Positions 3,570-60,452 of a DNA stretch of 64,000 nt are shown here, one piece after another. How positions within the stretch are numbered: the stretch's first letter is position 1; every line of letters starts with the position of its first letter. A program made the translations under genes and the position numbers. This DNA is from an uncultured Ruminococcus sp. (GTDB taxonomy: Bacteria; Bacillota; Clostridia; Oscillospirales; Ruminococcaceae), in the NCBI GenBank assembly GCA_902787365.1, contig CADAGC010000035.1, positions 28,996-92,995 on the forward strand. The letters run 5' to 3'. The notes beneath the pieces were generated by a model. It did no database searches, had not been told where the DNA came from, and was given only the letters and a program-made list of their open reading frames with translations.

Positions 3570-3609
3570 ATGAAAAAAAGCTCCTCCGCAACGGGAAGAG
3601 CCTTTTTTC
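3570..3609 (-). terminator. Terminator of rnpB
   Basis: Minus-strand hairpin GCTCTTCC/GGAGGAGC followed by seven T, directly after the 3' end of the RNase P RNA. Confidence 0.85.
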
Positions 3610-3950
3610 ATGAGACGGCCTGTAAGCCGGGTTTTGTCGTGTACGGCAATCTATCTGCGCTTTATGTCGCCATAAAGCTTTAGCCCCCTACAGCTTGGGC
3701 CTGACGAGCAGCCATTGACCATGGGCTGCCATTGGGGTTGCATCGGGTAAGGTTTACACGGCAGACGCATCTCTGCGCCTCCGGTGAGCTCTTGCCTCAC
3801 CATTCCACCCTTACCGAAAAATCGGCGGTATCTTTTCTGCTGCACTTGCTCGGGAGTCGCCTCCGGCTGATGTTATCAGCTACCCTGCTCTGTGATGCCC
3901 GGACTTTCCTCACTGACTAAACGTCACCGCTGCCGTATAGCCGTCTCATA
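3610..3950 (-). ncRNA. rnpB: RNase P RNA (bacterial)
   Basis: The catalytic RNA of RNase P, which removes 5' leaders from tRNA precursors. Read on the minus strand it opens and closes with the pairing ends GAGACGGC and GGCCGTCTC, contains the universally conserved GAGGAAAGTCCGGGC near the 5' side, and ends with ACAAAACCCGGCTTACAG, the conserved 3' core. Length about 340 nt is normal. It has its own promoter (3957-3985) and terminator, and is bracketed by two inverted MITE copies. Small open frames across this interval are shadows. Confidence 0.95.
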
Positions 3951-26510: not shown

Positions 26511-27632
26511 TCACGACCCTACGATGACTTTTCTGTTGCCGTAGGTGTCTCTCCAGGCCTTGAAGAAGTAAATATCCTTATCCGCCTTGTCCTTATAGGA
26601 CTCGACTATTTCATCAAGGCTGTCTCTGACTGTCATTTTCTTTGCTACTACTACCCACCTTACCGTTCTCTGCGAGCCGAGCTCGTAGGTGCAGGTGGAC
26701 ATTGTGAGGAAATCATCATCCTCATTGAAATCTATCGAATTGTCTATCCAGGAATACTTGAGTATATTCGATTTCCAGGTCTCAAAGCTGTAATGCCCGT
26801 CGGGTGTGAAGTTTCGGTAGTTCCAGTAATCGAAAGCACCGTCGCCGCCGTCCTGGTCGGGGGCATCTATGCCGATGAATGTAGCAAGCACTACATACAC
26901 CTGGTTTCTCTCATATATCGTATTGAACTCGATAAGAGGGTTTTGCTTTATAAAATCTGCGCCCTTCTTGAATTTCTGTAATGACGCAAACTGTGTGCCG
27001 TTCATCATATTGTGTCCGTAGAGCGTGATGTTGTTTGCCTGCCCTTCAAGGGTTATGGGCATCACGCAGTCAGCAAATATGCTTCCCGACTCGGTCTGCG
27101 CACCGTCGATATTGTGGTGCAGATAATACTCGTTGCTCGATTCGTGCTGCAAAACGGGGTAATTGATTATCGCATTACCGTCAGACCCCGTGATGCCCGG
27201 CACCTTTATCCAGCCTACCACATCATCATTTCTCTCCAGAAGCGGGAGCGCCCATTCCTGAAGCTCTCTCGGCTCGACTGTGATGACAGGGTTTTCTATC
27301 TTGGTAATCTTGCCCTTCTTTTCAGACGTATCTATCGTATCGCCGTTGCCGTTAGAAGAAGCGGGGCTTGATGTTTTGCCGCTGTTGCCGAAATCAGGCT
27401 CCAGAGAGCGAAGCTCTTCAAAATAAGTAAGCTCCTGCTCATCGGCCCTCAGATAATCCGAAAGCGAATCAAGCGACACCGCAAATACTGCGATAGAGGC
27501 TATAAACATCAGCTTTCTGAATACTTCCGAAATGCCGTCGCCCTTCCAGGGAATAAAGTATTTTGCAGCCCTCAGGAAGAAGTTCTCCTTCTCCTTTACA
27601 TGGGTCGTATTTATCTCATTTGCCATAGACAT
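26511..27632 (-). CDS. srtB: Class B sortase
   Basis: A transpeptidase that cuts NPxT[GSN]-type sorting signals and links the protein to the cell wall. The 373-residue protein has a membrane anchor at about 41-59, a linker, and a class B catalytic domain with NNITLYGHNM (His207), FLTMSTCTYE (Cys314) and GSQRTVRW (Arg322). Length and the extra helix between His and Cys match class B. Three proteins in the window end in NPKTG, NPKTS and NPQTG and are plausible substrates. It starts four bases after the CinA stop, using GAGGG inside that gene. Confidence 0.9.
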   Translation of the reverse strand: MSMANEINTTHVKEKENFFLRAAKYFIPWKGDGISEVFRKLMFIASIAVFAVSLDSLSDYLRADEQELTYFEELRSLEPDFGNSGKTSSPASSNGNGDTIDTSEKKGKITKIENPVITVEPRELQEWALPLLERNDDVVGWIKVPGITGSDGNAIINYPVLQHESSNEYYLHHNIDGAQTESGSIFADCVMPITLEGQANNITLYGHNMMNGTQFASLQKFKKGADFIKQNPLIEFNTIYERNQVYVVLATFIGIDAPDQDGGDGAFDYWNYRNFTPDGHYSFETWKSNILKYSWIDNSIDFNEDDDFLTMSTCTYELGSQRTVRWVVVAKKMTVRDSLDEIVESYKDKADKDIYFFKAWRDTYGNRKVIVGS

Positions 27633-39813: not shown

Positions 39814-39851
39814 CACCCCCAAGGAAAGTGAATTTCCTCGGGGGTGTTTTA
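39814..39851 (+). terminator. Terminator of the two-component operon
   Basis: CACCCCCAAGGAAA gtgaa TTTCCTCGGGGGTG followed by TTTT. A smaller hairpin GTCCTGC ttc GCAGGAC lies at 39782-39798. Confidence 0.85.
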
Positions 39852-39905: not shown

Positions 39906-40592
39906 TCAGATTCCATACTTCACCCTCACCCTCTCAAGCTTCACACCGAAGGGCTTGAATAGCAGCGCTAAAAACAGCACATTCGACACCATGTATGACA
40001 GCGTGTAGGGTATAGCAGAAACAAGCGCTGCGCCGTAAAGGCCTAAAGAAAAGCCCTTGTTGTACCAAAGCACCGTCCATATGTCCATAATAAACGAATA
40101 CATCACGCCGCAAAGTGCGCCGTAGATAAGCAGCAGCGGCATATTGGCTTTGAGCCGCTTTGAGAGCACACCCGCAAAGAAGCCTATCAGCCCCCACGCA
40201 AGCATTTGAAAGACCGTCCAAGGCCCCTGCCCGAAGTAGAAGTTAGAAAGCAAAGCCGCAAGCGAGCCGACTAAAAACCCCGCCTCGCTGCCCATGTAAA
40301 TGCCTGTAATCACCGCCATGGCGGTTATGGGGTTAAGAAAGGGTATAAACCGCCCCGCAAATGCCAAGGCCGTCATAACAGCGCAGATGACCATTCGGCG
40401 GGTGCCTATCTTCTTGCGGTCAAACCCCACCGCAAAGAGCAGCAGCGCAAGCCCTGCCGCCGCTAAAGACACAAGCAGGTGACTTCCGCCGCCGAGTGCC
40501 AATGACCCCGCCACCGCAAGTGACGGCACCAGCAGAAACGGCACACCGTACCTTATCAGCGAGCCCGCACGCTCGTTTTTTATCATCAGCAT
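39906..40592 (-). CDS. ECF transporter S component (probable corrinoid)
   Basis: A 228-residue integral membrane protein with about six hydrophobic segments and the typical S-component layout; RFIPFLNPITAMAVITGIYMG and LSNFYFGQGPWTVFQMLAWGLIGFFAG are characteristic. S components bind the vitamin and dock onto the EcfT/EcfA energising module, encoded immediately upstream and overlapping by 7 bases. Because the operon is led by a cobalamin riboswitch, I infer a corrinoid (CbrT-like) specificity; the sequence alone would not prove it. Last gene of the operon. Confidence 0.8.
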   Translation of the reverse strand: MLMIKNERAGSLIRYGVPFLLVPSLAVAGSLALGGGSHLLVSLAAAGLALLLFAVGFDRKKIGTRRMVICAVMTALAFAGRFIPFLNPITAMAVITGIYMGSEAGFLVGSLAALLSNFYFGQGPWTVFQMLAWGLIGFFAGVLSKRLKANMPLLLIYGALCGVMYSFIMDIWTVLWYNKGFSLGLYGAALVSAIPYTLSYMVSNVLFLALLFKPFGVKLERVRVKYGI

Positions 40593-42220
40593 AGGCTCAC
40601 CCCTTTTCCGTTTTTCAGACAGAGTGATGATAGGTCATCGACTGTGACAACGCCCTCATATTTGCCCCTTGCTATGCGTGAAGCCGATGTGGTGTAGAAG
40701 CTCCCCCTGTCGAAAAACTCCCAAGGCGGCAGCGCACAAACTGCCTCGCCGCCGAAAAGCATAACGCACCTGTCAGCGCAAAGTGCGGCAAACTCAATGT
40801 CGTGCGTCACAAGAATAAGCGTCACGCCCTCGGCTTTGAGCTTATGGAAGATATCGGCAGCCGTAAGCTTCAAGGCGCTGTCCATTCCCTTTGTGACCTC
40901 GTCGAGAATAAGCAGCTGCGGCTTGCTGCCGAGCGCCTTTGCAAGCGCCAAAAGCTGCTGCTCGCCCCCCGAAAGGTCGTAGGGGTGAGTGCCGAGTAAA
41001 TGCCCTATCTCAAAGGGCAGCTCCTCGGGCTTTATGCCTGCTTCATCAAGCTCCTGCTCCACCGTCTGGTGCAAAAAGCAGGTCTGTACGTCCTGCGGCA
41101 CAAGGGTCAGGCACTCTTTGTAAAGGCTCGTGCTCTTGTAGTCCTTAAGTCTCTTGCCAAGCACCTTTATACTGCCGCTGTAGGGTCTTATAAGCCCCGC
41201 CATGCAGCGTGCAGCTGTCGATTTGCCCGAGCCGTTAGCGCCCAGTATGCACACAATCTCGCCCTTGTAAACATCAAGGCTCAGCCCCTTTAATATGTCG
41301 GCCTCTCCCCTGCTGTAGCGAAAATATACGTCTTTGAGTTCAAGCGCCTTATCTGCCGAATGAGTGTATTCTCCACGCTTTGGGGCTTTTGTATCGGCCT
41401 TGTACGGAGCTATGTACTCTCTGCCCTGTGCGACATTGAGCGGGCAATCCCCCGTCCCGCCAAGCGCCTTGAAAAGCCTTGCCGCCGCAGGCATAGCAGG
41501 GGCAACGGGGCTTTTCGGGTCAAGTGCTGCTATCACCTCTCGTGGGCTGCCGTTGTGTATCAGCCTGCCGCCGTCAAGTATCATCAGCCTGTCACTTATC
41601 GGCACAAGCTCATCAAGCCTGTGCTCTGCTATAAGCACAGTAAGCCCCAGCTCGTCGCAGAGCTTTTTTACCGTGTGTATGAATTCCGTGGCCGCTATCG
41701 GGTCAAGCTGTGCCGTCGGCTCGTCGAGTATCAAAAGCTTCGGCTCGCCCATCATAACAGACGCAAGGTTTAAAAGCTGCTTCTGCCCGCCCGACAGCGA
41801 GTCGGTGTCGCTCTCATACCAGCGGTCAATGCCGAAATAGCTCGCCGTCTCCGCCGCACGAAATGCAATAAAGGCCTTGTCAGCCCCTGCGTTTTCGAGG
41901 GTGAACACCAGCTCTGCCCACACCTTGTCGCAGACTATCTGCGCATCGGGCTGCTGCATAACATACCCTATGCCGAGGGCGGCGCTCTTGTCATCAAGCT
42001 CTGCCTGCGGCCTGCCCTCAAAGGTCATCCCGCCGCTTAAGTCTCCCATTGGCGCAAGCTCACGCTTTAACAGCTTAAGCAGGGTAGATTTGCCGCTGCC
42101 TGTACCGCCTGCAAGCAGATTAAAGCTGCCCGCCTCCAAGCTGAAACTAACGTCACTCAAAGCAGGTCTGTCACAGTTCGGGTAGGTAAACGTCACACCC
42201 GACGCTGTAAGTATTTCCAT
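40586..42220 (-). CDS. ecfA: ECF transporter ATPase with two fused ABC domains
   Basis: A 544-residue fusion of two nucleotide-binding domains. Domain 1 (about 1-235) has GGTGSGKST, LSGGQKQLLNLA and LLILDEPTAQLD; domain 2 (about 292-500) has GANGSGKST, LSGGEQQLLALA and LLILDEVTKGMD. In the second Walker B region DEVT replaces the usual DEPT. The fused arrangement replaces separate EcfA and EcfA' subunits and powers uptake together with EcfT. It overlaps ecfT by 28 bases and the S-component gene by 7 bases. Confidence 0.9.
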   Translation of the reverse strand: MEILTASGVTFTYPNCDRPALSDVSFSLEAGSFNLLAGGTGSGKSTLLKLLKRELAPMGDLSGGMTFEGRPQAELDDKSAALGIGYVMQQPDAQIVCDKVWAELVFTLENAGADKAFIAFRAAETASYFGIDRWYESDTDSLSGGQKQLLNLASVMMGEPKLLILDEPTAQLDPIAATEFIHTVKKLCDELGLTVLIAEHRLDELVPISDRLMILDGGRLIHNGSPREVIAALDPKSPVAPAMPAAARLFKALGGTGDCPLNVAQGREYIAPYKADTKAPKRGEYTHSADKALELKDVYFRYSRGEADILKGLSLDVYKGEIVCILGANGSGKSTAARCMAGLIRPYSGSIKVLGKRLKDYKSTSLYKECLTLVPQDVQTCFLHQTVEQELDEAGIKPEELPFEIGHLLGTHPYDLSGGEQQLLALAKALGSKPQLLILDEVTKGMDSALKLTAADIFHKLKAEGVTLILVTHDIEFAALCADRCVMLFGGEAVCALPPWEFFDRGSFYTTSASRIARGKYEGVVTVDDLSSLCLKNGKGVSLC

Positions 42221-43074
42221 TTAAGGCTCACCTCCGCTTTGAGAATAACAGGCAATAAGCTCAGGCCGCAAAACGCCGCCAGCCCCAGTATATCCTTAGT
42301 GCCGTTTGATACTATTCGTGTTTTGGGGTAGAAACTGTATTCAAAGCCGCCTGATACAATACATATGAGAATGACTGATAACAGCCCCGCCATTATGACA
42401 AGCAGCCCCACGTCGCCCCTGTCAATGCGCTTGTTGCGAAAGCAGGTGCGCCTGCCTAACGAAAATCCCCTTGCCTCCATGCTGTCGGCGGTGGTTATTC
42501 CGCCCTCTAAAGCCCATGTTATGAGTATAGAGAATATCCTGATATTTGAGCGTATCTCGTGAGTAAGGCTGTCGTCATTGTAAAGCCCCATAGCACGCTG
42601 TGTTTCCTTTATCTTTCTACGCTGCCTTGTAAACAGCGGCACGAACCGAACCGACATTGAGATTATAAGCGATAAGTTCTTTGATAAGAGTGATGTAAGA
42701 TAAATAAGCTTGTCGCTTGTCAGCACAAAGGTAAGGGTGCGAAACCAGTAAAGTGCCGCAATTATCATAACAGCGCTGTTAAGCCCGAAATAGAAGCTCT
42801 CAAGGGTTATCGGCCGCCCGTTTATAAAAAGCAGCGCCGTGTCGCCCTTGTGCGATACAAGAGGGTTTGCAATAACAAGCAGCAAAAAGAGAATAAACGC
42901 AAATATAGTAAAACTGCCCTTGTGCTCGCCCTTTACCGTGTAAAAATACATCACCGCACCTATCAGCGATATAACGAGCAGCGGCGGGTAAGGCACAAAC
43001 ATAGTGACCCCCGCCGTGCAGGCGAAGTAGAAAAAGGTCACTATGGGGTTTGAGTCCTCTATACGTCTTATCAC
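42193..43074 (-). CDS. ecfT: ECF transporter transmembrane component T
   Basis: A 293-residue membrane coupling subunit. I choose the GTG at 43074, whose GTGA overlaps the stop of the DUF4430 gene and which has AGGGAT 8 bases upstream; longer extensions overlap the previous gene and give a nonsense N-terminus. It has several N-terminal membrane helices and the coupling helices with the EcfT signature, here SMEARGFSLGRRT (an ARG motif) near residue 215. Connects the ATPase with the S component. Confidence 0.85.
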   Translation of the reverse strand: MIRRIEDSNPIVTFFYFACTAGVTMFVPYPPLLVISLIGAVMYFYTVKGEHKGSFTIFAFILFLLLVIANPLVSHKGDTALLFINGRPITLESFYFGLNSAVMIIAALYWFRTLTFVLTSDKLIYLTSLLSKNLSLIISMSVRFVPLFTRQRRKIKETQRAMGLYNDDSLTHEIRSNIRIFSILITWALEGGITTADSMEARGFSLGRRTCFRNKRIDRGDVGLLVIMAGLLSVILICIVSGGFEYSFYPKTRIVSNGTKDILGLAAFCGLSLLPVILKAEVSLKWKYLQRRV

Positions 43075-43838
43075 TCTATATCCCTGCCTATCTCCTTGGT
43101 GTAGCGCCACTCGATAACGTCGCCGTCTTTTGGTGTGTACTGCGAGCTGTTGACCGAGGGGGCCTGCCCGTTTACATAATACATCCACCCCGAAAGCTCG
43201 CCGTGGTCAAATTCATATATGCCTGCTATGCCGCTTACATATATCATCTCGTCGCTGCCCTTGATGTCGAGCAGTATGCCGTTTTCTCTTGCAAGTCTGT
43301 CAAGCAGGTCAAAGGCCGTGTCGCCCTCTTTTATGTCAACCGTCTGCACGGGTATGATGTAGCCGTCCTCGGGAATATCATCACGCATACCCATTATCGT
43401 CAGGCAGTCAACACTCATAGTCACCTGCCCGATGCTCTCGCTTTGTGAGCTGCTGTCAGTCGGTGCAAAATGCTCATCTTTCGTTTCTATATCAAGAAAC
43501 GCAGTCACCGCACACAGCACGCCGCCTATTGCGATTATCAGAATGTAGCTCTTGATGTTGCGCCTGCCCCTTGCAAAGAGTATAACGCAGGCTATCACCG
43601 CCGCACCGCCTATGCCTATGAAGATATATACCTTTATGCTTGTTTCGTGATATATCTCGTCAACCATTCGCTCGGTCACGGCAGTTGTGGTCTGTTTGTC
43701 TGCTTCACTTGCAGCCGCCGTGTCGCTGACTGTCTCTGTTTGCTGTGATGTGGTGGTGCTCTCGCTGTCAGTCACACTCTCGGTAACGCTTTCGGTCTTG
43801 CGCTTCGCTCTCCCGTGTGGTGACGTTTCCGCCTGCAC
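43071..43838 (-). CDS. DUF4430 membrane protein; probably the C-terminal half of a frame-broken barrel-DUF4430 protein
   Basis: A frame of up to 255 codons that opens with a GTG lacking any ribosome site and without signal peptide. It begins in Ser/Thr/Glu-rich sequence continuing the linker character of the preceding gene, then has two membrane segments (about 73-93 and 98-117) and a DUF4430 domain (about 140-250: AFDLLDRLARENGILL, SGWMYYVNGQAPS, DGDVIEWRY). The DUF4430 fold is like the beta domain of intrinsic factor and transcobalamin, which closes over cobalamin. It overlaps the barrel gene by 71 bases in another frame; a single-base indel there would fuse them. In an operon behind a cobalamin riboswitch. 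Confidence 0.75.
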   Translation of the reverse strand: MQAETSPHGRAKRKTESVTESVTDSESTTTSQQTETVSDTAAASEADKQTTTAVTERMVDEIYHETSIKVYIFIGIGGAAVIACVILFARGRRNIKSYILIIAIGGVLCAVTAFLDIETKDEHFAPTDSSSQSESIGQVTMSVDCLTIMGMRDDIPEDGYIIPVQTVDIKEGDTAFDLLDRLARENGILLDIKGSDEMIYVSGIAGIYEFDHGELSGWMYYVNGQAPSVNSSQYTPKDGDVIEWRYTKEIGRDIE

Positions 43839-44946
43839 TCTGCGAGGTCACAGTCTGTGAAGCCGTCTGCTTTGTGCCTGCCGCCGTCGTGCCCGTCTGC
43901 TTTTTGGTGGCGGCCTTTTTGGTAGTCACCTCGGCAGGGGCTTTGGCGGTGGTGGCCTTTGTTGTTACTTTCGGCTTGTCGGTGTCTTGGGGCTTTTCGG
44001 TCTTGGGGGGCTTTTTGTTGTCAAACACAAAGAAAGCGCCCTTGCCTTTGCCCATTCTCTCATATGCTGTAAGGCAATAAAACGCCTGCACGGTCGCACT
44101 CTCGTTAGCGCCCTTGCCCTTTTGGTGCTCAAAGCTGCCGTCACTAAGCGCAAAGCCTGCTATTGCGTCAATTATCGTGCTGCCGCCCTTAATAAAGCGC
44201 TCGTCCTTGCAGGGGTCGATACCGAGCGAAGACAAAGCAAGCAAGACCTGCACCGTGCTCTCGCAGTTCTCAACGCCGAAGCTCTTGTACGCTCCGCTTG
44301 CCTGCTGCGCCTTTGATAAAAAGCCAAGCGCCTTGTCGCAGGCCGCCTTTACCTTGCTGTTACTCCTGACACTTGGCGCAAGCGCTGTTACCGTCATTGC
44401 CGTGCAGTCGGGGTCGCCGTAGTCTCCGATTATCGCAAAGCCGCCGTCTGCCTTTTGCAGGGCGAGAATGTCAGAAATAAGGCTCTTGGCCGTAATATCC
44501 CCCGTCGTAAAGCCGTTATTGACTATATGCAGAGCAAACACAAGGCTCATAAGCCCCTGCTTGCCCGCCGACGAGCCGAGGGCTTCAGTTATGTAACTGT
44601 CACTGCTGCCCGTGCTTATCAAAGCAAGGGCAAGCTTCTCCCTCGTGGTAGCTGATGCGATGTTGTTGTTTGCGATGTAGCTTTTTAGTGCCTTTTGATA
44701 GCGTGAGAAATCATAACTGCCCGACTGTGAAAGCGCCATAACGTACCACTCGCTGCTAACGCCTGCCTTGTCGGTCAGCTCACCGTCTATCCACGCCTGA
44801 ATACTGCCGCCCGAACTCTTATTATCACAAATACCGCCCAGCAATTGCGAGGCGGTATCGTAACTATCTGCATATGCTGTGATCGGTGTGACGATACAGC
44901 TTATCATTATAAGGCAGGCTGCAATAAATGCTGCCGCTTTAGTCAT
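43768..44946 (-). CDS. Secreted alpha/alpha-barrel protein (intrinsic-factor-like N-terminal domain)
   Basis: A 392-residue exported protein: signal peptide about 1-26 (cleavage after TAYA), a helical-repeat domain (about 30-300) with prenyltransferase/terpene-cyclase-type repeats such as LQKADGGFAIIGDYGDPDCTAMTVTAL and SDGSFEHQKGKGANESATVQAF, then a Thr/Lys linker (TTKKAATKKQTGTTAAG). This alpha6/alpha6 barrel is the fold of the N-terminal domain of intrinsic factor. The last about 15 residues (RESEAQDRKRYRECD) are a frame-shifted end rather than natural tail. Its ATG overlaps the TAA of the upstream gene (TAATG). Role in corrinoid binding is inferred from fold, operon and riboswitch. Confidence 0.8.
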   Translation of the reverse strand: MTKAAAFIAACLIMISCIVTPITAYADSYDTASQLLGGICDNKSSGGSIQAWIDGELTDKAGVSSEWYVMALSQSGSYDFSRYQKALKSYIANNNIASATTREKLALALISTGSSDSYITEALGSSAGKQGLMSLVFALHIVNNGFTTGDITAKSLISDILALQKADGGFAIIGDYGDPDCTAMTVTALAPSVRSNSKVKAACDKALGFLSKAQQASGAYKSFGVENCESTVQVLLALSSLGIDPCKDERFIKGGSTIIDAIAGFALSDGSFEHQKGKGANESATVQAFYCLTAYERMGKGKGAFFVFDNKKPPKTEKPQDTDKPKVTTKATTAKAPAEVTTKKAATKKQTGTTAAGTKQTASQTVTSQSAGGNVTTRESEAQDRKRYRECD

Positions 44947-45962
44947 TATCTCTTGCGGCTCTTAGCAGCAACAATGCCTGCAAGTGCTAAACCTGCAAGT
45001 GCGAGCTGAAGCTCAGAAGAAGTCTTGGGGTTAGATGTAGTTGTTGCAGCAGCTGCTGTGTCCTTCTTCTCCTCTGCCTTTGTGTCTTCCTCAGCCTCTT
45101 CCTCGGTATCCTCGTCCTCTGTAGGCTCTTCTGTCTCTTCCTCAGGCTCGTCAGTAGGCTCTTCCTCGGGCTCTACTTCGGGCTCGGGTTCTACCTGCTC
45201 CTCCTCATCCTGCTTAAGTGCAGAAACAACGCATATAGGCGGAACGAGTGTCTGTGTATCCGATACAGCGCTGATAACATAGTCACCGCCCTTGTCGAGC
45301 TTGACTGTTACCTTGCCCTCATCATCGGTCACAAAGTCGGTCTTCTCGCCGTTAATGGTTATGTATGCGCCCTTTGCGGGAAGTGTAACGGAATTCCAGT
45401 CTGCATCATAGCCTGCATAGCTGAGTGTGAGGTCGATAGTGTCCTTCTCATCAAGTACCAGTTCTGTAAAACGTGTGTCAAAATAGCAGTAAGTATCAGA
45501 GAAAGCAGAAGTATCTGTATAAACAAATGCATCAACAAACACGGGTGAGCCATTTTCAGATACCACAGAGTCGGTAAGAGCCCATGCAGATGCGCCGTTT
45601 ACATAATAGCCGTAGCTGCCGCCGTTCTCAACGCCCCAGAGCTTTGCAAGCGAAAGCCCCCACTGTGTTTCAGCTGTGGCAAAACCTGCTGCTGCGCCGC
45701 CCTCATAGTAATCCTCATGTGCTGCATAAAGTGCATCTGCTATTGTGAGTGCGCCGTCATTGTCTGTGTCTGTCACCTCAACCGCCTTCTGCTCAACTGC
45801 AAGCTTACCCTCGCCGTCAGCAATAGTAACATAAGCAGTTACAGATGTAGGAAGAGTCGATGATTCCTCCGTTGTTTCCTCAGCAGATGCCGTAACAGCT
45901 GCTGTGCCTATGCTCATAACGATAGCCATAGTAAGTGCCGAAAGCTTTTTCATTGTCTTCAT
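44946..45962 (-). CDS. Wall-anchored DUF4430-like protein with NPKTS sorting signal
   Basis: A 338-residue surface protein, first gene of the cobalamin-riboswitch operon. The ATG at 45962 has AAAGG 9 bases upstream. After a signal peptide (cleavage near TASA) comes a domain with DNDGALTIADALYAAHEDYYEGG and GGSYGYYVNGASAW, the latter matching the YYVNG motif of DUF4430, then an Ig-like segment (about 190-250), a Glu/Pro/Thr spacer and NPKTS, a hydrophobic stretch and KSRKR. It would present a corrinoid-binding or accessory domain at the outer face of the wall and hand over to the membrane-bound parts. Ligand is inferred. Confidence 0.75.
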   Translation of the reverse strand: MKTMKKLSALTMAIVMSIGTAAVTASAEETTEESSTLPTSVTAYVTIADGEGKLAVEQKAVEVTDTDNDGALTIADALYAAHEDYYEGGAAAGFATAETQWGLSLAKLWGVENGGSYGYYVNGASAWALTDSVVSENGSPVFVDAFVYTDTSAFSDTYCYFDTRFTELVLDEKDTIDLTLSYAGYDADWNSVTLPAKGAYITINGEKTDFVTDDEGKVTVKLDKGGDYVISAVSDTQTLVPPICVVSALKQDEEEQVEPEPEVEPEEEPTDEPEEETEEPTEDEDTEEEAEEDTKAEEKKDTAAAATTTSNPKTSSELQLALAGLALAGIVAAKSRKR

Positions 45963-46097
45963 TCTGATCATCCTTTCCATATCTCACACCTTTTGGCAAA
46001 ACAAAAGCCCCTTTAAAAGCCTAATGCCTTTAAAAGAGCGCACCCAAACAAGCCCCTGAAAGCTTTAGCTTTTCAGAAACTCAAGGCGCACCTTTCA

Positions 46098-46224
46098 TTT
46101 ACCCAAAGGCGGTAGTCTTGCGACAATTGCCTGTCCTCCCCGACGAGCGATCCGACTTCTGACTTGCGTCTTTTTACGGTAGTGGCTGCTGCGGCGGATT
46201 TTCACCGCCATTCTCTCCTATTAG
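46098..46224 (-). promoter_or_regulatory. Cobalamin riboswitch
   Basis: Minus-strand leader with GGCGGTGAAAATCCGCC, then CAGCAGCCACTACCGT (the B12-box region) and GCAAGTCAGAAGTCGG, in the order and spacing of the cobalamin aptamer; it is compact, so possibly a class II type. Downstream, CTGAAAAGCT aaag CTTTCAG and GGTGCGCC/GGGTGCGC-type pairings (45995-46095) could form the expression platform before the start at 45962. Confidence 0.8.
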
Positions 46225-46279
46225 AAATAAAAAGTCACTTCTATTCTTCGGGGAAGCATAAATATTCACTTATAGATTT

Positions 46280-46308
46280 ATTATACCACTTTGATAGTAT
46301 TTTGTCAA
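46280..46308 (-). promoter_or_regulatory. Perfect consensus promoter of the cobalamin operon
   Basis: Minus-strand TTGACA (46308-46303), 17 bases, TATAAT (46285-46280), about 50 bases upstream of the aptamer. Confidence 0.85.
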
Positions 46309-46357: not shown

Positions 46358-46564
46358 CTAATCAAAGTCCTTAACCTCTATATCGGGCGGTGCGTCAATA
46401 TCCTTGCCCACATAACCCCCGTTTTTGCGGCGCTGCTTGACGCATTCGGTGAGCAGATACTCTATCTGCCCGTTCACCGAGCGAAAATCATCCTCCGCCC
46501 AGCTTGCGAGGTCATTGTATAGCTTCTCCGATAAGCGGAGAGGCACCTGTTTCTTAGCTGCCAT
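46358..46564 (-). CDS. Arc/ribbon-helix-helix-like small protein
   Basis: A 68-residue protein opening with KKQVPLRLSEKLYNDLASWAE, a beta strand followed by two helices as in Arc/MetJ DNA-binding proteins; NGQIEYLLTECVKQ is the second helix. The C-terminal 20 residues are acidic and probably flexible. Its ATG shares bases with the stop of the SPFH gene, so expression is coupled. SPFH plus Arc pairs are common in Clostridia. Probably an autoregulator; inference. Confidence 0.75.
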   Translation of the reverse strand: MAAKKQVPLRLSEKLYNDLASWAEDDFRSVNGQIEYLLTECVKQRRKNGGYVGKDIDAPPDIEVKDFD

Positions 46565-47592
46565 TAGTAAAGCGACCCCGAGTTGACTACGGGCTGTGCG
46601 TCATGGTTGCCACAGAGAACTACCAAGAGATTAGATACCATAGCGGCCTTTCTCTCCTCGTCAAGGTCTACCACCTGCTTCTTTGAAAGCTCCTCCAGAG
46701 CCATCTCCACCATGCCTACTGCGCCGTCAACTATGAGTTTTCTTGCATCTACTACAGCCGATGCCTGCTGTCTTTGCAGCATTGCGGCGGCTATCTCGGG
46801 GGCGTATGCAAGATATGTTATCCTCGCTTCGATTATCTCGATGCCTGCGTTCTTTACTCTTTCCTGTATCTCGTCCTTGATGCGGTTTGCAACTATCTCG
46901 CTCGAACCTCTCAGGCTGCCCTCATCGGGTGAGCCGTCGCCTGTTGTATCAACGCCCTGCGCTACGTCATAGGGGTATATCCTTACAATGTTTCTCAGCG
47001 CCGTGTCGCATTGCAGCGAGAGGTATTCCTTGTAGTTGTCAACATCAAACACAGCCTTTGCTGTGTCAACCACTCTCCACATAACAGCTATGCCTATCTC
47101 GATAGGGTTGCCGAGGCAGTCGTTTATCTTCTGCTTGTTGTTGTTGAGTGTCATTATTTTCAGGGAAATACGCTTGTCAGCCATGCCTGTTGCAGAACCT
47201 ATAGCATCAACACCCGTCTTTATAGCTATCGCTGTAGGGTTTGTTTCGCCGCCCACATCACCGCTCTGACGAAGCTTTGTAGTAGCTGCGGGGTTTACAG
47301 CCGTGCAGAAAGGGTTTACATAGTAGAAGCCGTCGCCCTTAAGTGTGCCTACATATTTGCCGAAAAGTGTGAGCACCAGCGCCTCCTGCGGCTTTAATAC
47401 CTTAAGGCCGAGCCAGAATATCCAGCCCACCAGTATATATGCAAGCCCGCATACTATGCATATTATGCCCCATGTCTCGCTGTCGTTCATTGCTCCGAAC
47501 ACCAGCAGACCGATAGCGCCGAGATACAGCAATATCGTCAGCAAAAGCACCGCCATACCGTTCTTTTTCGTCGAAATAATTTTTTCCTCCAT
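46564..47592 (-). CDS. SPFH/band-7 domain membrane protein
   Basis: A 342-residue protein with two N-terminal hydrophobic helices (about 14-34 and 42-64) and an SPFH domain (about 65-300): VLKPQEALVLTLFGKYVGTLKGDGFYYVNPF at the start, GNPIEIGIAVMWRVVDTAKA in the middle and a long C-terminal helix with AAAMLQRQQASAVVDARK. These proteins form oligomeric membrane scaffolds. Middle gene of a three-gene operon. AGGAGG precedes the ATG. Confidence 0.9.
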   Translation of the reverse strand: MEEKIISTKKNGMAVLLLTILLYLGAIGLLVFGAMNDSETWGIICIVCGLAYILVGWIFWLGLKVLKPQEALVLTLFGKYVGTLKGDGFYYVNPFCTAVNPAATTKLRQSGDVGGETNPTAIAIKTGVDAIGSATGMADKRISLKIMTLNNNKQKINDCLGNPIEIGIAVMWRVVDTAKAVFDVDNYKEYLSLQCDTALRNIVRIYPYDVAQGVDTTGDGSPDEGSLRGSSEIVANRIKDEIQERVKNAGIEIIEARITYLAYAPEIAAAMLQRQQASAVVDARKLIVDGAVGMVEMALEELSKKQVVDLDEERKAAMVSNLLVVLCGNHDAQPVVNSGSLY

Positions 47593-60376: not shown

Positions 60377-60452
60377 GGGGTTATAGCTCAGTTGGTAGAG
60401 CGGTTGCTTCGCATGTAACAGGTCAGGGGTTCGACTCCCCTTAGCTCCACCA
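60377..60452 (+). tRNA. tRNA-Ala (anticodon CGC)
   Basis: 76 nt including encoded CCA. Cloverleaf: acceptor GGGGTTA/TAGCTCC with the G3:U70 pair that identifies alanine tRNA, D stem GCTC/GAGC, anticodon stem GTTGC/GTAAC with loop TTCGCAT (anticodon CGC), T arm GGGG TTCGACT CCCC. Reads GCG codons. Single gene. Confidence 0.95.

Follow-up and report, generated by a model that had tools for sequence, protein, structure and literature searches.

Probable surface corrinoid capture and ECF import encoded behind a predicted cobalamin riboswitch in an uncultured Ruminococcus

The 64,000-nucleotide stretch of DNA analysed here (the window; uncultured Ruminococcus sp., GCA_902787365.1, contig CADAGC010000035.1) carries an operon on its minus strand (46308-39906) which very probably lets this Gram-positive gut bacterium catch corrinoids at its surface and take them up through an energy-coupling factor (ECF) transporter, under the predicted control of a cobalamin riboswitch. 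Its six overlapping frames encode, in order, a wall-anchored DUF4430-like protein (gene 1), an alpha/alpha barrel, a membrane DUF4430 protein, EcfT, a fused EcfA-EcfA' and an S component. Corrinoid import had been proposed in a first-pass annotation of the sequence, and it is supported by the CbrT-type S component together with the cobalamin riboswitches found ahead of homologous operons.

According to the mechanism which we propose, the leader would permit expression when intracellular cobalamin is low. The wall protein would concentrate the corrinoid, and the barrel and the DUF4430 domain would close on one corrinoid molecule at the membrane, from where the S component would receive it for import driven by ATP hydrolysis. 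The imported corrinoid may serve B12-dependent enzymes, for example the one B12-binding protein encoded in the genome.

The S component frame matched ECF-ribofla_trS with 38.3 bits (cut-off 26.7). The profile of 13 S components matched 6FNP chain A at E 1.5e-16, the next S component being 4HZU at E 0.0013. The structure 6FNP is ECF-CbrT, for which the handling of cobalamin and cobinamide was shown by uptake and isothermal titration calorimetry (PMC5997447; this and the other published sources are cited for the parts of their text that were available). Sequence comparison thus supports a CbrT-type S component whose best solved relative, CbrT, is a proven cobalamin S component. All three ECF parts named in the first-pass annotation had Pfam matches; the NCBIfam ECF ATPase models scored 292.9 and 267.4 bits on EcfA-EcfA', below their cut-offs of 315 and 330. 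The longest listed frame of ecfT is 42193-43188, and a GTG start at 43074 is indicated by the 4-base GTGA overlap.

The leader and its occurrence ahead of related operons

The Rfam models do not reach their gathering scores in the window leader. RF01689 (AdoCbl-II) gave 29.8 bits at 46227-46137 on the minus strand (gathering score 36.5) and RF00174 gave 23.8 bits (31.5), the latter being the sole RF00174 match at E ≤ 1 in the 2.9-Mb genome. A relative's leader from the same genus exceeded the RF01689 cut-off with 36.8 bits. A conserved core is common to many leaders of orthologous operons, and a covariance model of the leaders of 33 relatives (R2) was used, from which the window was excluded because the covariance model R1 gives no independent matches on the 34 rows used to train it. 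R2 scored 88.4 bits at the window leader and, with 150 of the 413 first-look candidates scored, matched nowhere else in the genome at E ≤ 1.

The covariation was assessed on 34 of 54 leaders found by pattern, after the exclusion of one duplicate, one near-copy and the longer or more divergent types (alignment A6). In six helices with 26 pairs, 95.4% of the cells were paired compared with 87.1% in shuffles, and both sides had changed in 19 of the 26 pairs compared with 8.9 in shuffles; none of 500 shuffles reached either value. When the partner columns were shifted by one, pairing fell to 58.2 or 40.6%. Since the same alignment had served to predict 23 of the pairs, while the remaining three, which form the loop-loop helix, were chosen by a scan, a part of the pairing excess arises by construction, whereas the compensatory changes do not. 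Pair 66-170 of the helix chosen in this way was UA in 15 leaders, CG in 10, UG in 8 and another combination in one. A kissing contact between loops is known for this class of cobalamin riboswitches, and the pattern at this pair is as expected for it. As judged from R2 and the covariation, the window leader is a real, divergent cobalamin riboswitch in spite of its sub-threshold Rfam scores, as had been claimed for the head of the operon from the sequence alone. The terminator-like hairpin between the aptamer and gene 1 suggests that the predicted leader acts as an OFF switch, although this hairpin is not conclusive by itself, 24 terminator-like sites being found in the region where 7.0 are expected from shuffles.

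The same linkage was found in other genomes, the homologous operons not being led consistently by a different riboswitch, which would have refuted the first-pass reading. Family genomes were chosen by DUF4430 alone (carried by 73 of 148), and 40 stretches were taken. A single-sequence search found an operon gene in 35 of them and none in five; two or more ECF parts were present in 28 of the 35, and 26 operons remained after two without upstream sequence were removed. In 20 of these 26, the 3 kb preceding the first recognised gene contain an Rfam cobalamin riboswitch in the same orientation, at a distance of at most 0.7 kb in 14 (L043 being sub-threshold). At most three RF00174 matches were found in each of the 41 genomes. 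The related operons have either the short leader type or long classical ones, with RF00174 scores of up to 126.4 bits beside operon L039. Two Rfam-negative operons, L048 and L063, have leaders according to R1 (L048 being one of its training rows). A separate Rfam search of L048, L053, L049 and L044 detected no riboswitch; that L048 was nevertheless positive by R1 makes the limits of Rfam visible for this leader type.

A second set consisted of 80 named loci, which were the top-scoring part of 253 matches to a fused query, so that fused copies are favoured in it. Gene 1 was present at 67 of them, and 64 could be evaluated after three without upstream sequence were set aside. Four records are common to both sets (L042/L085, L048/L084, L050/L109 and L053/L088). 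R1 found a leader at 53 of the 64 loci and RF00174 at two more (L104 and L112). The order gene 1, fused capture gene, ecfT, ecfA and S component on one strand was kept at 50 of the 80 loci, at 46 of them with gaps of at most 300 bases. Seven loci (L077, L082, L085, L090, L109, L141 and L142) consist of a capture gene and a CbrT-like S component without EcfT or EcfA, and no leader was found there by R1; these lone pairs are perhaps satellites which use a shared ECF module or serve another ligand. At one named locus, the leader ahead of gene 1 is accompanied by a second match, located between the capture gene and ecfT (L147:10524-10682). Beside an operon without a detected riboswitch, in a genome with CbiC, a divergent gene was noted (L053, the same as L088, 1277-2296), the start of which presumably belongs to a LacI-type regulator.

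Predicted surface proteins and the fold of the putative capture protein

The barrel and DUF4430 frames of the window, which the first-pass annotation took for two proteins, are one split gene as judged from relatives. The DUF4430 part of the annotation held well, PF14478 scoring 67.8 bits (cut-off 23.8), whereas the barrel remained below the Pfam cut-offs (SQHop_cyclase_C 22.0 bits, cut-off 26.1; Prenyltrans 19.2 bits, cut-off 26.5). Both halves matched the profiles of relatives, with 438.5 bits for the barrel and 164.1 bits for the DUF4430 part. Barrel and DUF4430 domain form a single frame in the nearest relatives: in L032, from the same genus, and also in 77 of the 78 complete copies of the named set, which was selected by means of the fused query. 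The two window frames overlap by 71 bases (43768-43838), and the break lies in the Ser/Thr-rich linker before the first membrane anchor. A programmed frameshift was considered and rejected as unlikely; the other split copy (L142) breaks at a different place. Among the 36 stretches of the set chosen by DUF4430 alone, the gene was fused in 15, present as separate genes in 15 and represented by DUF4430 alone, as far as found, in six.

The topology of the capture protein was deduced from 60 of the 77 single-frame proteins (alignment A4), in all of which DUF4430 was matched at E ≤ 0.1. Between the two domains, the fused form has a Ser/Thr-rich linker (median 96.5 residues, range 6-178) and two membrane helices. 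The turn of this hairpin contains at least three Lys or Arg and no Asp or Glu in all 60 proteins, which by the positive-inside rule places the turn in the cytoplasm and both the barrel and the DUF4430 domain outside. In the two-gene form, which more distant relatives have and which gives two membrane-anchored proteins, the barrel protein carries a C-terminal hydrophobic segment at 15 of 15 loci and the DUF4430 proteins start with a hydrophobic segment. The hairpin of the fused form is therefore best read as two joined membrane anchors, and it likely originated when the tail anchor of a barrel protein was joined to the head anchor of a DUF4430 protein. At one locus (L040:3374-5254), a single 626-residue frame naturally joins a DUF4430 domain to an S component, which suggests that the two work in direct contact and hints at a direct hand-over.

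The structural comparison was made with the model of a fused orthologue, L072, rather than with the split window protein (mean predicted local distance difference test, pLDDT, 80.6; 407 of 652 residues at 90 or above). Transcobalamin and intrinsic factor together account for the 14 best PDB matches found by Foldseek (E 1.7e-6 to 4.0e-5; template modelling score, TM, of the target 0.38-0.49). The isolated beta domain 5NO0 was superposed with TM 0.73 and a root-mean-square deviation of 2.8 Å over 114 columns, whereas the matches of the whole chain gave 14.8-19.4 Å, the barrel and lid domains being undocked in the model. The barrel is followed by the beta-grasp domain in this orthologue, as in the animal cobalamin binders. 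The model thus has the barrel and the intrinsic-factor type of beta fold which the first-pass annotation predicted, and an intrinsic-factor-like two-domain architecture of the capture protein is supported at the level of predicted structure. By sequence, the DUF4430 profile was aligned with the transcobalamin beta domain by HHalign at E 0.0012 and 19.5% probability. PF01122 had no match in the window frames at E ≤ 1 and matched one of ten relatives (E 0.017), and it was not among the 25 families, of 76, listed for the 60 fused orthologues.

Gene 1 shares 41-59% identity with eight orthologues and was aligned with 43 (alignment A5, 44 sequences with the window). Its designation as a wall-anchored DUF4430-like protein stood in the first part: the window protein ends with an NPKTS sorting signal, an xPxTx motif occurs within the last 60 residues of 33 of the 44 sequences, and the only sortase found in the genome is the candidate for anchoring it. 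In contrast, Pfam does not call the domain DUF4430, PF14478 matching one of the 44 sequences (orthologue L118, 35.5 bits). The model (208 of 344 residues at pLDDT ≥ 90) matched the transcobalamin beta domain 5NO0 at rank 45 (E 4.4e-3, target TM 0.49), and the profile comparison of gene 1 with the fused capture protein gave a 13-column match only. The immunoglobulin-like (Ig-like) domain was matched by CarbopepD_reg_2 in 28 of the 44 sequences at E ≤ 0.1. A strict 12-residue EF-hand-like pattern is present in 39 of the 44 and a near variant in four more, while L118 has a plain turn there; this loop is putatively calcium-binding. The surface placement of these proteins agrees with the sorting signal, the sortase and the anchor topology.

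Weighing of the readings and relation to known systems

Within the proposed relay, the capture protein may tentatively be regarded as a clamp that is part of the transporter. The barrel and the beta-grasp lid would stand outside on the ends of the hairpin of fused anchors, closure and hand-over to CbrT would occur at the membrane face, and the clamp would be fed by the wall receptor with its calcium-type loop. If this is true, the protein would be a present-day relative of the ancestral form of intrinsic factor, with a mode of action not described for an ECF system in the literature consulted.

Several results weigh against the proposed function. HHalign aligned the barrel with its transcobalamin counterpart out of register and without significance (E 0.031, probability 1.6%), and a PDB profile search with the barrel placed terpene cyclases first, with no transcobalamin among the 30 matches up to E 10. 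The scan of six transcobalamin inner-helix windows gave no single consistent register: the best score was reached by 7 of 300 shuffles for the fifth helix, by 22 for the fourth and by 65 to 285 for the other four. The scan was therefore rejected as evidence for cobalamin-contact residues, His173 being one of the contact positions in transcobalamin; a literature search for contact residues yielded nothing of use. Six of the 26 operons have no Rfam riboswitch, and R1 was likewise negative for four of these (L035, L044, L053 and L055). Similarly, nine of the 64 gene 1 loci are without a leader (seven were checked by Rfam in addition, as was L088 under its other name L053, and L130 by R1 only). 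CbiC occurs in 22 of the 40 named genomes with the operon, which is hence not tied to auxotrophy. Finally, the window's own capture gene is split.

The resemblance to intrinsic factor thus holds for the fold and domain order of L072 but not for the barrel sequence, the similarity of which to transcobalamin is not significant. Of the relay from a wall receptor through a membrane barrel/DUF4430 pair to an ECF importer, corrinoid import, the two-domain architecture and the surface placement were supported, while the pair itself proved to be a split gene in the window. The general concept is not new either: it was published in 2007, 19 years ago (PMC1796856), which the first-pass annotation did not mention.

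The split raises a real, if lesser, chance that the capture protein is inactivated in this genome, with a barrel left without its membrane anchor, a DUF4430 half without a signal peptide, and an importer that may work alone. The 71-base overlap of frames that are single in L032 and nearly all complete named copies is consistent with such a loss, and so is the different position of the break in L142, which makes a programmed shift unlikely. Moreover, the two-gene relatives keep the C-terminal hydrophobic segment of the barrel at 15 of 15 loci, whereas the window break precedes that segment. On the other hand, both halves are open and well conserved, which would make the change recent or an assembly error, and the two-gene arrangement works in 15 of 36 stretches.

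It is unlikely that the substrate of this same machinery is not cobalamin itself but another cobamide or an incomplete corrinoid such as cobinamide. The CbrT of L. delbrueckii also carries cobinamide (PMC5997447), and salvage would be of use in those 22 genomes where the operon coexists with CbiC. However, the leader is of the cobalamin-riboswitch type, and CobS was not found in the own genome and in 12 others of 19, so that cobinamide could not be finished by CobS there. Neither CbiC nor CobS was found in the own genome (93.75% complete), and among the 19 genomes CbiC was found in five and CobS in six. The one B12-binding protein is an 817-residue frame, a size that would fit methionine synthase. 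From its gene content, the Ruminococcus host looks auxotrophic for B12, and the operon also occurs in producers.

That the barrel and DUF4430 are general scaffolds within a corrinoid operon, such as receptors for other nutrients or wall-binding parts, and the surface proteins do not bind cobalamin, is improbable: the closeness of the barrel to terpene cyclases and the contact-residue comparisons without a significant or consistent outcome would fit it, but the transcobalamin domain pair and order in the L072 model and the repeated linkage to CbrT-like S components and cobalamin riboswitches speak against it.

Corrinoid capture followed by ECF import, the preferred reading, has its closest published counterpart in the transcobalamin-like clade of SLBB proteins (Burroughs et al. 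2007; PMC1796856). DUF4430-type domains were described there with signal peptides, Gram-positive anchor motifs, an alpha/alpha toroid fused on either side, paired surface proteins and CbiO-like and CbiQ-like operon genes; B12 scavenging was predicted for the class, and a bacterial source of animal transcobalamin was proposed. The second paralogous extracellular SLBB protein of that clade would correspond here to gene 1, in which PF14478 matches one of 44 sequences only. The hosts were there usually without key enzymes of B12 synthesis, unlike the 22 of 40 named genomes with CbiC here. In the available text of that study, riboswitch, calcium, EF-hand and CbrT are absent and transmembrane appears only in the methods and references. 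The present analysis adds a strong link to riboswitches, the assignment of the S component to CbrT, a membrane-hairpin topology that likely goes back to two joined anchors, the calcium-type loop and the correction of the split gene.

Animal transcobalamin, intrinsic factor and haptocorrin are soluble, compact proteins. The order of barrel and beta-grasp domain is the same as in the L072 fold, but the bacterial domains are set apart by the Ser/Thr-rich linker and two membrane helices. The ECF-CbrT of Lactobacillus delbrueckii (PMC5997447) shares with this operon a homologous S component and genes for EcfT and EcfA, but one module is shared there among S components, whereas the operon has its own module with a fused EcfA-EcfA' and surface capture proteins. 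In Lacticaseibacillus rhamnosus (PMC9963975), a surface protein was similarly annotated as a helper, an 'additional lipoprotein component of putative cobalamin ECF transporter', and a DUF4430 protein (LGG_02295) lies beside rtpR; the available text gives annotation and abundance only and does not mention a kinship of the two proteins or a barrel. Bacteroides BtuG also catches B12 at the surface before transport, but it is a beta-propeller working with BtuB and thus has another fold (PMC6977713).

Among the papers listed in searches of the open-access literature, none reported a functional study of bacterial DUF4430 proteins or described an intrinsic factor from bacteria. Corrinoid capture outside the membrane of Gram-positive gut bacteria is little studied, and it is from such bacteria that animal transcobalamin and intrinsic factor were proposed to derive. 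The operon family is present in named Ruminococcus flavefaciens strains, and it offers a defined protein for testing the questions of capture and origin.

Layout of the locus

The promoter and the six overlapping frames described in the first-pass annotation are present (Table 1). The window contains 21 TTGACA-17-TATAAT sites with at most one mismatch where 0.3 are expected, so that near-consensus promoters are the local norm and appear to be kept close to consensus in the Ruminococcus host. With a terminator-like hairpin 3' of the last gene and a second one upstream of the promoter (46352-46327), the operon is a plausible closed transcription unit.

Table 1 Features of the predicted corrinoid operon and the sortase gene in the window
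Feature	Position	Strand	Basis or remark
Sigma-70 promoter, TTGACA-17-TATAAT	46280..46308	-	12/12 consensus positions
Predicted cobalamin riboswitch aptamer, AdoCbl-II type; loop of downstream hairpin can pair with core loop	46070..46247	-	Model R2, covariation
Terminator-like hairpin with T-rich tail, possible expression platform	46007..46039	-	
Gene 1: signal peptide, divergent DUF4430/beta-grasp-like domain, Ig-like domain, NPKTS sorting signal, hydrophobic tail, basic end	44946..45980	-	
EF-hand-like acidic loop, residues 71-82 of gene 1, within the beta-grasp-like domain	45735..45770	-	
Capture gene, first part: signal peptide, alpha/alpha barrel, Ser/Thr-rich linker	43768..44946	-	Sub-threshold Pfam barrel matches
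Capture gene, second part, other frame: linker, transmembrane hairpin, DUF4430 domain	43071..43838	-	PF14478
EcfT (CbiQ family)	42193..43074	-	PF02361 32.1 bits, cut-off 25; longest listed frame 42193-43188
EcfA-EcfA' fused ATPases	40586..42220	-	Two ABC_tran stretches in one frame
CbrT-like ECF S component	39906..40592	-	Profile match to 6FNP chain A
Terminator-like hairpin, 14 pairs, 3' of last gene	39814..39846	-	
Sortase, candidate for anchoring gene 1 product	26511..27632	-	PF04203 42.1 bits

Just upstream of the operon, a ribbon-helix-helix protein and an SPFH/Band 7 protein are encoded on the same strand (46358-47592). Elsewhere in the window, an RNase P RNA (3607-3948, minus strand, 260 bits) and a tRNA gene (60377-60449, plus strand) were found.

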